64,000 nt of DNA. Origin: Cyanobacteriota bacterium (GTDB taxonomy: Bacteria; Cyanobacteriota; Cyanobacteriia; PCC-6307; Cyanobiaceae). Below are positions 11,521 to 31,166 of this stretch, piece after piece. The stretch covers positions 1-64,000 of the forward strand of contig JAPLIC010000024.1 in assembly GCA_026389315.1 (NCBI GenBank), in the 5' to 3' direction. Made by a program: the position numbers and the translations under genes. Within the stretch, counting starts at the first letter, position 1. The number at the start of each line of letters is the position of its first letter. The notes under the pieces were generated by a model, which was given only the letters and a program-made list of their open reading frames with translations, had not been told where the DNA came from and did not search any database.

Positions 11521-12528
11521 ATGGACATGACCACACCTGAACCCCCACCTGGGCCCCCGCCTGTTGGCGCCCGTCCGCCAGGTCTGATCCAGCGGTACAG
11601 AGAGCAACTGCAGGCCCGCCATTACGCCCGCCGCACAGTGGACACCTACGAGCAATGGCTGCGGCGGTTTCTGAGGTTTCACCAGCTGCGCCATCCGCGG
11701 GAGATGGGCAGCGCGGAGGTGAATGCCTTCCTCACCCATCTGGCGGTGGAGGGTCAGGTCAGTGCCTCCACCCAGAACCAGGCCTTATCGGCGCTGCTGT
11801 TTCTGTATCGGGTGCTGCTGGAGCGGGATCTGGATCTGGAGGGGGTGGTGCGAGCCAGGCAGAAGCGACGGCTGCCCGTGGTGTTGCCCCCGGGGGAGGT
11901 GCGGGCGGTGCTGGAACGGATGGACGGCGTGGAAGCGTTGGTGAGCGAAGTGTTGTACGGCAGTGGGCTGCGATTGATGGAAGCGCTGCGGCTGCGGGTA
12001 CAGGATCTGGATTTCGAGCGCCGAGAACTGACTGTGCGTGACGGAAAGGGCAACAAGGATCGGCGGACGATGCTTCCTATAGGGGTAGGAGAGCGGTTGA
12101 GAGTGCAGCTACAGAAGGTGCGATGCCTGCACGAGAAAGACCTTGCTGAGGGGTACGGAAGTGTGCAACTACCGGGTGCGCTCCGACGTAAATACCGTGA
12201 TGCGGACAAGCAGTGGTACTGGCAGTGGGTGTTCCCCCAGTACCAGCGCTGGCGCAATAACCAAACAGGAGAGCAGGGTCGGCATCATCTCGATCCGAGC
12301 CTGGTGCAAAAGGCGATTCGCCGCGCCGTGATCGAGGCAAAGATCAGTAAGGCCGCTACCTCTCACAGCTTCCGTCATTCTTTTGCAACCCACTTACTCG
12401 AACGTGGCCATGACATCCGCACGATACAGGAATTGCTCGGCCACAACGACATCCGAACCACCATGATCTACACCCATGTGCTGAACCGTGGCCCATTCGG
12501 CATCAGCAGCCCTGCCGACAACTTGTAA
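11521..12528 (+). CDS. intI: Integron integrase (tyrosine recombinase, IntI type)
   Basis: Catalytic motifs GSGLRLMEALRLRVQD and HSFRHSFATHLLERGHDIRTIQELLGHNDIRTTMIYTHVLNRG; IntI-specific insert ALRRKYRDADKQWYWQWVFPQ. Confidence 0.92.
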   Translation: MDMTTPEPPPGPPPVGARPPGLIQRYREQLQARHYARRTVDTYEQWLRRFLRFHQLRHPREMGSAEVNAFLTHLAVEGQVSASTQNQALSALLFLYRVLLERDLDLEGVVRARQKRRLPVVLPPGEVRAVLERMDGVEALVSEVLYGSGLRLMEALRLRVQDLDFERRELTVRDGKGNKDRRTMLPIGVGERLRVQLQKVRCLHEKDLAEGYGSVQLPGALRRKYRDADKQWYWQWVFPQYQRWRNNQTGEQGRHHLDPSLVQKAIRRAVIEAKISKAATSHSFRHSFATHLLERGHDIRTIQELLGHNDIRTTMIYTHVLNRGPFGISSPADNL

Positions 12529-14160: not shown

Positions 14161-14370
14161 ATGGAAAACCTCTATGATGCTGTTGTTGAGCCTGACGGAC
14201 GAATACGGCTCAATACATCAGTACATCTCCAAAAGGGCCTCAAGGTCTTGGTCGCAGTGCCACGAAGCGACAAGGATTCTGCGTTAAGCGGAATCGCATT
14301 GAGCGAACCTTCGCTTACAGATGATTGGCTCAATCCAGATGAAGAGGAAGCATGGGCGCACCTTCAGTAG
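14161..14370 (+). CDS. Antitoxin of cassette 2
   Basis: MENLYDAVVEPDGRIRLNTSVHLQKGLKVLVAVP, 69 aa, overlaps the toxin ORF. Confidence 0.65.
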   Translation: MENLYDAVVEPDGRIRLNTSVHLQKGLKVLVAVPRSDKDSALSGIALSEPSLTDDWLNPDEEEAWAHLQ

Positions 14371-14705
14371 GTGATGGAGTCATCATTCCATTCCCTTATT
14401 CCGATCTGTCGCAATCCAAGCGCAGGCCCGCCCTTGTCCTTGCTGAAGCGGGCAGAGGTGATTTTCTTCTTTGTCAGATCACCAGCAAGAAATATGGTGA
14501 TTTACATGCCTTGTCCCTCAAAGAGTCGGACTTCCTCTCCGGTGGCATCAAACGAGACAGTTTTATCCCTGGCGCCAAGCTATTCACTGCCAATGAGGCT
14601 CTTATTCTTGGAGTTGCTGGACATCTGACTCATTCCAAGCTTTCAGAAGTCATTTACCAACTTATTGAAATACTGTCTGCTTGCCTGAAAGATGACACCT
14701 TCTAA
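14352..14705 (+). CDS. MazF/PemK-type toxin of cassette 2
   Basis: GDGVIIPFPYSDLSQSKRRPALVLAEAG...LCQITSKKYGD. Confidence 0.8.
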   Translation: MGAPSVGDGVIIPFPYSDLSQSKRRPALVLAEAGRGDFLLCQITSKKYGDLHALSLKESDFLSGGIKRDSFIPGAKLFTANEALILGVAGHLTHSKLSEVIYQLIEILSACLKDDTF

Positions 14706-14784
14706 CATCCAAATCCAGAAGACGGCAGCAATGGCTGACTTCTGTGCCGAGATTCATGACCGCCGCTGATCTTGGGCGTTGGGC
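14700..14784 (+). repeat. attC recombination site 2
   Basis: R'' TTCTAAC at 14700-14706 is the reverse complement of cassette 2's own start GTTAGAA (14021-14027); R' GTTGGGC at 14778-14784; shares CAGAAGACGG and GCTGATCTtGG-GCGTT with attC 1. Confidence 0.85.
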
Positions 14785-14858
14785 GGACGCTGCATAGGTA
14801 CCGCCCCCCTGTTGCTGTCCTTGATTTCCGGCTAGAATTAACAGAGGAGCTATGTCTG

Positions 14859-15167
14859 ATGTCCATGCGCATTGACGAAAAGCGAGAAGAGATTGCAGAG
14901 GCTTGCCAGCGATACGGTATAGAGCGCCTATTCATCTTTGGCTCTGCTCTCAGAGAAGACTTCAGGCCTGGGGAAAGCGATATTGATCTTCTTGTTGAGT
15001 TTGGCCCTATAGATATTTCCAAGAAATTTCATACTTACCTAGAGGCTCGTGCTGCTTTTGGCAAGATCCTTCAGGCTGAGGTTGACTTGGTAATGAGCGG
15101 AGCAGTGAAAAACAAAGTCATCGCCGGCGAGATTGATCGAACGAAGAAGCTTCTATATGGCGCGTGA
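14859..15167 (+). CDS. MNT-type nucleotidyltransferase (antitoxin of an MNT/HEPN pair), cassette 3
   Basis: RLFIFGSALREDFRPGESDIDLLVEF. Confidence 0.8.
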   Translation: MSMRIDEKREEIAEACQRYGIERLFIFGSALREDFRPGESDIDLLVEFGPIDISKKFHTYLEARAAFGKILQAEVDLVMSGAVKNKVIAGEIDRTKKLLYGA

Positions 15168-16166: not shown

Positions 16167-16315
16167 GGCGTTAAACCCGGGGAGGCCGGCGGCGATCGGG
16201 ACCAAATCATTGTTCTGCGGCCATCTGATCTCGGTCAATGATCGTCAGATGGAAGCCGCTGGAAGTCGATGGAAGAGGCAGGAAGAGGCCCCATTGGGTT
16301 GCAGGGGTGGCACTA

Positions 16316-16936
16316 ATGGATGGAGGTCTTTTCTGCTTCCCAGGCCTCCCTCCCCCCGGTGTGCCCCCAACCACCCCAGATCCCGCCCCGCCGCCTGTGG
16401 GCAGCGAAGAGCCCCTGGTTCTGCCAGAATTTGCAGCAACGCTTCGCCTCTGGTCCGGTCTCGACCGGCTTGGTCTAACTCAGTCCATCGGCGGCCTCGT
16501 CCTCGGCCTGATCGCCCTGTTCTCCTCTTATGACCACATCACCCTCGCCGGCCAGAGCATCAGCCTCCAGCAGCAATGGGGAATCCCTTGCATCTTTGCC
16601 TCGGTGGCGACAGTTTTTGTCGATTCTCAACTGGCGTCGCGATCCAGGCTACGAGCAGCGTATCAACGCGAAGTTGATCGAAATCGAGCAGATCAGGAAA
16701 GAAACCGAGCAGATCAAGAGCGACAGCGCGCAGATCAAGAAAGAAACCGAGCAGCTGAGGCGCGAGAACGCCAGGCTCAGGACGCTGAACGCCAGGCAGA
16801 AAGCCTTGAGCGCCTTGATCAAGCAGCACTGCTTTCCGCCCGAGTCCAACTCGACCCCAATCCCACCCATCGAGCCCGGCTCCAGTTCTTCCTGACGCTG
16901 ATGGATCAGAGATCGCTGCAGGATCCGGAAGCCTGA
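16316..16936 (+). CDS. Membrane protein with heptad repeats (outer frame of nested pair 1)
   Basis: IGGLVLGLIALFSSYDHITL transmembrane segment then RNRADQERNRADQERQRADQE; start approximate. Confidence 0.5.
   Translation: MDGGLFCFPGLPPPGVPPTTPDPAPPPVGSEEPLVLPEFAATLRLWSGLDRLGLTQSIGGLVLGLIALFSSYDHITLAGQSISLQQQWGIPCIFASVATVFVDSQLASRSRLRAAYQREVDRNRADQERNRADQERQRADQERNRAAEARERQAQDAERQAESLERLDQAALLSARVQLDPNPTHRARLQFFLTLMDQRSLQDPEA
16530..16895 (+). CDS. Coiled-coil protein nested in +1 frame (inner frame of pair 1)
   Basis: MTTSPSPARASASSSNGESLASLPRWRQFLSILNWRRDPGYEQR...IEQIRKETEQIKSDSAQIKKETEQLRRE; paralogous to 30871..31116. Confidence 0.6.
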   Translation: MTTSPSPARASASSSNGESLASLPRWRQFLSILNWRRDPGYEQRINAKLIEIEQIRKETEQIKSDSAQIKKETEQLRRENARLRTLNARQKALSALIKQHCFPPESNSTPIPPIEPGSSSS

Positions 16937-16987
16937 GGCGTTTTGGTCGCAGTGCAAAGGACTGCTGCCCTGGGTCGCGGTTCCAGC

Positions 16988-17749
16988 TCAGTCCGCCGCG
17001 CCGCTTTCCCAGGCGAATCGAGGCAGCCGATATAAAGCCTCCCGCTGGGCCTCGCTCCAGATATCAAACATGGTGGCCAGATCGGGATCGTCCGCTTCGA
17101 TCTTGCTTTGCTGGGCGATGGCCAGACTGCCGGCGGGAATCAGCGCCAACTCGAAGGGTGGGCCCACACTGAGGTTGGAGCGCTGGGTGAGGACCTGGGA
17201 GATCAAGCAGAGCCGGGCCCCATCTTCCAGGGAAAGGTTGGTGTTGCCGATGGTGTCGAGCGGCGGTTTGCCGTATTTGCTCTCGCCGATCTGCAGAAAA
17301 GGAGTTTCGGGCGCCGCCATGATGGCGTTGCCTTGGGGATAGATCAGATAGAGGCCATGGGCCTCGCTGCCGATCTGGCCGCCGAGGATGAAGGAGGCGG
17401 CGCCGCTGGATCCCGATTGCTTCAGGGCCGCTTCGTTTTCCTGCTGGACGGCCTGACTGACGCGACCGATGTAGGCCGCCGCTTCAAAGAGATAGTCGCA
17501 GTGCCGTAGATCTTTGCCGGCCCCGCGCTCTAAATCCGCATGGCGATCGAGGTCTCGGCGGATCCAACTGATCACCGCCTGGGTGGTGGCCAGGCTCCCA
17601 GCCGCCAGCAACACGAACAGTCGATCCGGAGCCGGCTGAAACCGGTGCATCTTGCTGTAACTGGAGATGTAATCGACTCCCGCACTGGTGCGGGAGTCTG
17701 AAGCCATGACCAGTCACTTCTCCAACCAGTAGCCGATGCAATAGGTCAT
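16988..17749 (-). pseudogene. Anbu (20S proteasome-like peptidase) interrupted by in-frame TGA at codon 12
   Basis: MTYCIGYWLEK[TGA]LVMASDSRTSAGVDYISSYSKMHRF; expected reading EKGLVMASDSRT. Confidence 0.85.
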
Positions 17750-30044: not shown

Positions 30045-30293
30045 TCACCCGAATAACTGATCAAGCTCCGGGCGCTCCTGAGCGATGGGTTGCTCGTCGA
30101 CCGCGCGTTGGATATCCGAGTCAATCGGGCCGCTGAGGGAATCGAGCCAGGTCCAGTCTGTGGCGATTGGCTCCAGGATCACGGCGGCGCCGTGCCGACG
30201 AATGCGCACTTCAGTGCCATCCATGCGGAATGCCTTGGGCAGCCGTACAGCCTGGGAGCGCCCAGACCAGAAGAGCTTCGCGGTGTCTATGGC
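30045..30293 (-). pseudogene. VapB-like antitoxin whose expected ATG is ATA
   Basis: (ATA)DTAKLFWSGRSQAVRLPKAFRMDGTEVRIRRHGAAVILEPI; the family normally begins MDTAKLFWSGRSQAVRLP. Confidence 0.6.
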
Positions 30294-30333
30294 GCGCCTA
30301 AGGAACAGTATGGATATCAAAAAGATATATCAG

Positions 30334-30402
30334 GGCTGAGCCCCTTTGCGCGGCAGTGCCGCAGGTGTGTGTCGGCGGTGATCGCCTACTGGCCATTTCC
30401 AG
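30334..30402 (-). pseudogene. Second HigA fragment
   Basis: GQ[TAG]AITADTHLRHCRAKGLSPD parallels GQRAITADTDLRLCRVLGLSPGY. Confidence 0.65.
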
Positions 30403-30444
30403 CTTGGGCGTTTGGTCATGGGGCAAGAGCCGTTGGGCTGTGGA

Positions 30445-30690
30445 AGGGATTCAGCAAGGCCCGCGAACCTTTGCGGGCTTCGCTGATCACATTGGTGTCA
30501 ACTAAAAACATCGGCGTCGTCCCCTCCTTCGGGCTGGCGCGCGAAATCGGTGTCACGCCCCACATCCGGCATGGCGGCCAGCAGTTCGGCCAGCTTGCGG
30601 CGGGGTGGGCTCAACAGCGCCGCCGCCAAGATCGCGCGGTGCGCCGCTTCGGCAGCCGCGCGCGCCGGCCACAGGCCGTGTGGAGAGGTA
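30445..30690 (-). pseudogene. Fragments of an antitoxin (C-terminus) and PIN toxin (N-terminus)
   Basis: ...SPPRRKLAELLAAMPDVGRDTDFARQPEGGDDADVFS* overlapping MFLVDTNVISEARKGSRAL. Confidence 0.55.
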
Positions 30691-30739
30691 CAAGAGTACT
30701 ATGCTGGTTTCGGCGACAGTTCGAGCTTGCTACGTTGAC

Positions 30740-31166
30740 GCTTGATCCTGAAAGCCTTCAATGGCAGCCAGCTCCATCTCAGCCCCCTTGGCTGCCGGAT
30801 CGCCAGGGCTGGTCAACCCTTCTCGCTGGAGCTCTGCTGCTCCTGATTTCATTTTTTTCGAACTACGGCGATGACCACCTCCTCCAGTTCGGAAGCCTCC
30901 CGGCCTCAGACCAGATCGGAATGGGCCTCCACCTTGCCGCCCTGGCGGCGCTTGCTGGCGATGCTCAACTGGCGACCCGTTTACGACATCGAACAGCGAA
31001 CGAAGCAGCTCGAAATCGAGAACAAGCGTCTCGCCGCGCTCGAATCCAGGCTGGATTCCTTGTTGCTCAATGCCGATTCCTCCTCGCAGACACCTCCCGC
31101 AACCGGCTCCAACTGAGTGAAGCCCTGGCGGTGTTGCTGGAGGAGATCAGGCTGCAAAAGCCCTGA
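30740..31166 (+). CDS. Membrane protein (outer frame of nested pair 2)
   Basis: LLAGALLLLISFFSNYGDDHLLQ...DAQLATRLRHRTANEAARNREQ; paralogous to 16316..16936; start uncertain. Confidence 0.45.
30871..31116 (+). CDS. Coiled-coil protein nested in +1 frame (inner frame of pair 2)
   Basis: MTTSSSSEASRPQTRSEWASTLPPWRRLLAMLNWRPVYDIEQRTKQLEIENKRLAALESRLDSLLLN. Confidence 0.6.
   Translation: MTTSSSSEASRPQTRSEWASTLPPWRRLLAMLNWRPVYDIEQRTKQLEIENKRLAALESRLDSLLLNADSSSQTPPATGSN

Follow-up and report, generated by a model that had tools for sequence, protein, structure and literature searches.

A putative same-strand nested gene pair, present in many cyanobacteria, with purifying selection on both reading frames

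Within the 64,000-nucleotide stretch of Cyanobiaceae DNA analysed here (the window), a gene for a predicted membrane protein appears to enclose a second gene completely, on the same strand and in the +1 frame. Comparative sequence evidence strongly supports the view that both frames are protein-coding and are kept by selection. We consider it nearly certain that the two genes are functional, and very likely that this holds jointly with expression of the inner one by internal initiation. Long nested bacterial genes are often doubted, and well-known examples come from phages. With over a hundred natural replicates, equal selection on the two frames and a start that moves between codons, the present family makes the reality of dual coding, and its evolution, directly testable.

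In the explanation that we prefer, one mRNA would be read twice. The outer protein (a predicted two-TM hairpin, then a long helix and one more at the C-terminus) would arise by ordinary initiation. The inner protein would arise by independent internal initiation, at an ATG lying within the codons of the hairpin loop. The latter would attach to the membrane by a short Trp-bearing amphipathic helix, and the two proteins would bind each other by the long helices that their shared DNA encodes, probably on the cytoplasmic face of the membrane. A direct membrane-bound complex of the two partners is put forward as a plausible but tentative model, because the long helices are co-encoded and both are predicted as helices.

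Layout of the two frames in the window

The outer frame, with candidate ATGs at 16238 and 16316, is already open ahead of 16238 and ends in a stop at 16936. The inner ORF was found where the first-pass annotation had placed it, inside this longer frame. The features of the pair, and those of a second, diverged copy in the window, are as follows.

16316..16936, + strand: outer gene, 206 aa, with an in-frame ATG at 16238 as a possible earlier start; its variable, Pro-rich N-terminus is followed by a predicted two-TM hairpin, a long helix rich in Arg, Glu, Ala and Gln, and a C-terminal helix
16466..16531, + strand: first predicted TM segment, equal to outer helix 51-72 (AlphaFold2 and hydropathy)
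16509..16511, + strand: inner-frame TGA, six codons 5' of the inner ATG and conserved in almost every Cyanobiaceae copy
16529..16534, + strand: outer codons TAT GAC (Tyr-Asp), which hold the inner ATG (16530-16532)
16530..16895, + strand: inner gene, 121 aa, wholly within the outer ORF and +1 relative to the outer frame; Ser/Pro-rich N-terminus (disordered), then a short amphipathic helix with Trp, a long helix and a disordered tail of Pro and Ser
16580..16645, + strand: second predicted TM segment (about residues 89-110), the start of outer helix 89-179
16644..16832, + strand: inner long helix, residues 39-101 (predicted structure)
16680..16754, + strand: 21-bp tandem repeat, 3.6 copies (Tandem Repeats Finder), giving heptad-length repeats in both frames
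30057..31166, + strand: outer open frame of the second copy; homologous part about 30798-31148, the start being a candidate only
30871..31116, + strand: inner gene of this second copy (81 aa), likewise +1 relative to its outer frame

The inner-frame TGA at 16509..16511 would keep translation that starts farther 5' from entering the inner frame. Downstream of the inner ATG, the DNA of the second outer TM segment (16580..16645) also encodes, in the +1 frame, the short inner helix (residues 25-35), and the long inner helix shares its DNA with the long outer helix, which extends to residue 179 (nt 16852). The 21-nt periodicity that had been noticed at first reading was recovered by Tandem Repeats Finder as a period of 21 bp, with repeats of heptad length in both frames.

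Base composition by codon position changes along the overlap. GC at outer position 3 was 0.7-0.9 in windows starting at 16448-16538, then 0.27-0.43 in those starting at 16598-16748. Where it falls, outer position 1, which is inner position 3, reaches GC values up to 0.7-0.93. By these values, the codon-position signal leaves the outer frame for the inner one near 16,600-16,640, in agreement with the earlier by-eye impression that G/C-ending codons dominate the outer frame before about 16,640 and the inner frame after it.

The window also holds an integron-type tyrosine recombinase-like ORF (11521-12528, judged by eye), after which come small toxin-antitoxin-like ORFs at 14161-14705; a nucleotidyltransferase-like ORF lies at 14772-15167. 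The pair and the gene that follows it are often convergent, with their 3' ends towards each other, as was seen in the window (16936-16988) and at loci L264, L265, L270 and L272. Such convergent placement might mark a preferred insertion place.

A multi-copy family and its neighbours

In the window's own genome the outer protein gave 22 matches, which correspond to about 13 copies. It matched 36 of 60 related genomes, among them 23 of 36 genus-mates. Sixty regions were retrieved and searched with both the outer and the inner protein. Within these regions, a copy matched by one of the two proteins was matched by the other too, in the same +1 phase, frame-shifted copies excepted. In Cyanobiaceae, 85 copies were extracted, including 63 distinct ones with both frames intact. 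Among named genomes, the inner gene is present in Cyanobium, Synechococcus, Vulcanococcus and 'Microcystis elabens' FACHB-917, for example.

The inner-protein profile (A2) matched several further cyanobacterial families. Across 389 genomes sampled over the class, the combined profile (A4) matched 69 and the outer profile (A3) matched 136, many of them weakly. The same nesting was present in non-Cyanobiaceae loci, often as tandem arrays (nine copies at L175, five at L182, four at L260). Homologues with one frame freely broken, or with the two frames joined by a 1-nt indel, had been named as the observation that would speak against a nested pair; they were largely absent. Outside Cyanobiaceae, 80 of 82 full-length outer genes keep the nested ORF, counted if it spans at least 75 codons from an ATG, and it is missing or short in the other two. 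The pair would represent two protein families, likely missed or mis-framed by annotation, in a group that includes cultured Cyanobium and Synechococcus strains. No description of the nested family was found in the open-access literature searched.

One frame is broken in roughly 10 of the 85 Cyanobiaceae copies. The frame left intact is the inner one in some of these and the outer one in others, as expected for decaying duplicates. Locus L238 has a stop within the inner frame. Contig C45 of the window's genome carries locus L044, where a single open frame leads from the outer N-terminus into the inner C-terminal frame through an indel in the coil; this may be either a decaying copy or a natural fusion. 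At L262 (757-1242, minus-strand coordinates), the outer frame carries an inner-type coil mid-way and then outer sequence again, and the inner gene is truncated, which looks like a pair of compensating frameshifts. One subfamily (L223-L234), of constant length and with strong outer matches, was suspected to be without the inner gene. This was rejected: the inner gene is present there, with a shorter tail.

A genome may hold from 0 to 22 matches, and some of the copies stand in tandem arrays. Both facts would fit a two-component conflict or toxin-antitoxin module, with one product that harms or signals and another that holds it in check; copy number and arrays would then reflect an arms race, and about 11 Cyanobiaceae loci lie beside TIR-FGE or WD40-FGE proteins. 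However, the copies in complete genomes lie among unrelated genes, where a fixed genomic partner was looked for and none was found, and the pair had no match to the family libraries searched. We consider a conflict module unlikely.

At the approximately 11 loci in question (L041 631-4536, L058, L060, L099, L116, L136 and others), the pair adjoins FGE-sulfatase-domain proteins. The domain is accompanied by TIR in L041 and L136 and by WD40 in L116, and in L041 two nested pairs alternate with two FGE-sulfatase-domain genes. Neighbours of the FGE, TIR and WD40 kinds are a hint of conflict biology.

Selection on both frames and the inner start

For the preferred reading, that of two functional genes, evidence comes from differences between copies, which were sorted into four classes according to their effect in each frame. 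The counting follows the idea of OLGenie (PMC7531306); it was done with our own script, not with the OLGenie program, and is pairwise rather than based on a codon model along a tree.

In the overlap, 31 matched Cyanobiaceae pairs gave a dNN/dNS ratio of 0.36 (0.29-0.44) for the inner frame and a dNN/dSN ratio of 0.39 (0.32-0.48) for the outer frame. The inner-frame measure was 1.22 (0.79-1.95) for the same 31 pairs in an upstream control, where only the outer frame is coding. For 39 pairs from other families, the overlap gave 0.32 (0.26-0.39) for the inner and 0.37 (0.30-0.46) for the outer frame, and the intervals of the flanking controls span 1. Purifying selection is equal on both frames in the overlap. 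The check proposed in the first-pass annotation, a comparison of constraint across homologues in both frames, has thereby found purifying selection in the inner and the outer frame alike.

The start of the inner frame was inspected across copies. The ATG is formed from the Tyr codon TAT and the G that follows it in 120 copies. Where the ATG lies one or two codons later, the Tyr codon is TAC in 20 of 21 copies; the TAT half of this contrast is true by definition, and its informative part is the replacement ATG found nearby in the TAC copies. The ATG is retained across copies through such codon swaps, as a maintained start signal. An SD-like GAGG stands just 5' of the inner ATG in 44 of 80 copies outside Cyanobiaceae. 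These copies often (36 of 80) read TGAGGTTTTATG or TGAGGTTCTATG, which unite the SD-like GAGG with an inner-frame stop. Among Cyanobiaceae copies the prevailing sequence is CTCCTCCTATG; an SD is absent there, and the TGA lies six codons upstream of the inner ATG. The window copy is no exception: no Shine-Dalgarno site precedes the ATG at 16530, as had been remarked at first reading.

Taken together, the kept ATG, the GAGG and the upstream inner-frame stop point to independent initiation and away from frameshifting, and the inner protein is, with high probability, made by internal initiation. Programmed +1 frameshifting would have ribosomes in the outer frame shift and fuse the TM hairpin to the inner helix, with no separate inner protein. 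It would account for a codon-position signal that switches frames, outer to inner, and for constraint on the inner frame. Yet the outer frame is constrained through the whole overlap, and frameshifting needs neither an ATG nor an SD, whereas the ATG survives codon changes and the GAGG is present in 44 of the 80 copies from outside Cyanobiaceae. Such frameshifting is very unlikely. The first-pass annotation had left two overlapping genes and a frameshift side by side. The former is now strongly supported by the inner gene's own ATG, the in-frame stop upstream of it and purifying selection in both frames; the latter is disfavoured by the ATG, the GAGG, the stop and the outer constraint.

Could the outer gene alone be functional, with an inner ORF that is open by chance because of repeats and codon bias? 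A repeat-rich outer protein does offer few positions at which an inner-frame stop can arise: when the outer proteins of the 63 copies were re-encoded synonymously, the inner frame stayed open in 16% of trials. The converse re-encoding of the inner proteins left the outer frame open in 1.1% of trials, and the third frame holds 5 stops on average. Simulated outer-only constraint gave an inner-frame ratio of 0.999. In simulated outer-only evolution at 17% divergence, stops broke the inner frame in 88% of cases, as against an inner ORF missing or short in two of the 82 full-length outer genes sampled from other families than Cyanobiaceae, and its openness is therefore more than chance. The outer-only reading is effectively contradicted by the constraint that the inner frame shows in the overlap, where the controls stay near 1. 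It also has to face an inner ORF that persists across cyanobacterial families and whose start is maintained, and we judge it highly improbable.

Predicted proteins and known systems

Structures were predicted for the products of both genes. AlphaFold2 gave helices at residues 51-72, 89-179 and 183-202 of the outer protein (mean pLDDT 80), and at residues 25-35 and 39-101 of the inner protein (mean pLDDT 81). With pTM values of 0.49 and 0.47 (<0.5) the relative placement of the helices is uninformative, and these are single chains, which say nothing on association. Hydropathy revealed two hydrophobic segments in the outer protein and zero in the inner one. An Arg-rich stretch lies C-terminal to the second outer segment, and by the positive-inside rule it suggests that the long outer helix is cytoplasmic. 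When the PDB was searched by sequence and by fold, the outer protein had no meaningful relative, and the inner one matched generic coiled coils only. In Pfam, NCBIfam and PHROGs, all matches were either below threshold or to generic coiled coils.

The gene arrangement recalls that of lambda Rz/Rz1, where a larger gene, for a TM and coiled-coil protein, holds a small gene in its +1 frame (PMC6139136). The likeness to spanins, raised at first reading, holds for this embedded +1 layout, and in both systems the two products plausibly interact (PMC6139136). It does not extend to a lipobox, a single TM or a phage context. The inner protein, which starts MTTSPSP or similar, has no lipobox (the first-pass annotation had said so), no signal sequence and no hydrophobic segment; the outer protein has two hydrophobic segments and a predicted helical hairpin, unlike the single N-terminal TM with a periplasmic coiled coil that marks a spanin of this type; and phage context is absent, the spanin PHROG match reaching only E 0.53. 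There was no match among 50,697 phage records or in IMG/VR, no relative in the plasmid collections searched, and no lysis gene recognised among the neighbours of the copies, which were read by eye. The cyanobacterial pair further differs in being chromosomal and multi-copy, and its inner product is mainly a long helix, whereas Rz1 is a short Pro-rich lipoprotein. The pair is not a spanin, and an embedded Rz/Rz1-type lysis pair of phage origin has next to no probability.

Two other systems bear comparison with the nested pair. Rpn toxins with intragenic antitoxins (PMC10327210) likewise obtain a second product by translation initiated inside a gene. However, the small Rpn product is the toxin's own C-terminal domain in the same frame (PMC10327210), whereas here the second product is read in another frame and has an unrelated sequence. 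The overlapping genes of E. coli O157:H7 (PMC7103648, PMC9927249) are also long, protein-coding and chromosomal, but they are antisense, in contrast to the same-strand, multi-copy pair found in many cyanobacterial families. By the sequence tests run, the present locus is best described as a nested gene pair: its second ORF lies wholly inside the first and is conserved, both frames are selected and the start is maintained.

The lengths of the two helices vary in steps. Between fixed landmarks, the outer helix of Cyanobiaceae copies measured 40, 47, 54, 61, 68, 75, 82, 89 or 96 codons, and 39 of 45 lengths fell in one class modulo 7. For the inner protein, length differences between nearest neighbours were multiples of 7 in 66 of the 95 non-zero cases, and a further 18 of the 95 fit one added 11-residue step. 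Because the DNA is shared, both helices change length together and keep the repeat register. These shared length steps raise the idea that gene overlap keeps two helical partners equal in length. A self-matching helical pair, with both long helices built from the same 21-bp and 33-bp units so that indels resize both partners and leave the registers intact, is a somewhat doubtful but conceivable form of this idea. If true, the overlap would allow many private partner pairs, bound to the membrane, to be multiplied and diversified in cyanobacteria while the match was retained. When a few copies were checked for a charge basis of pairing, the outer and the inner products were both near neutral.
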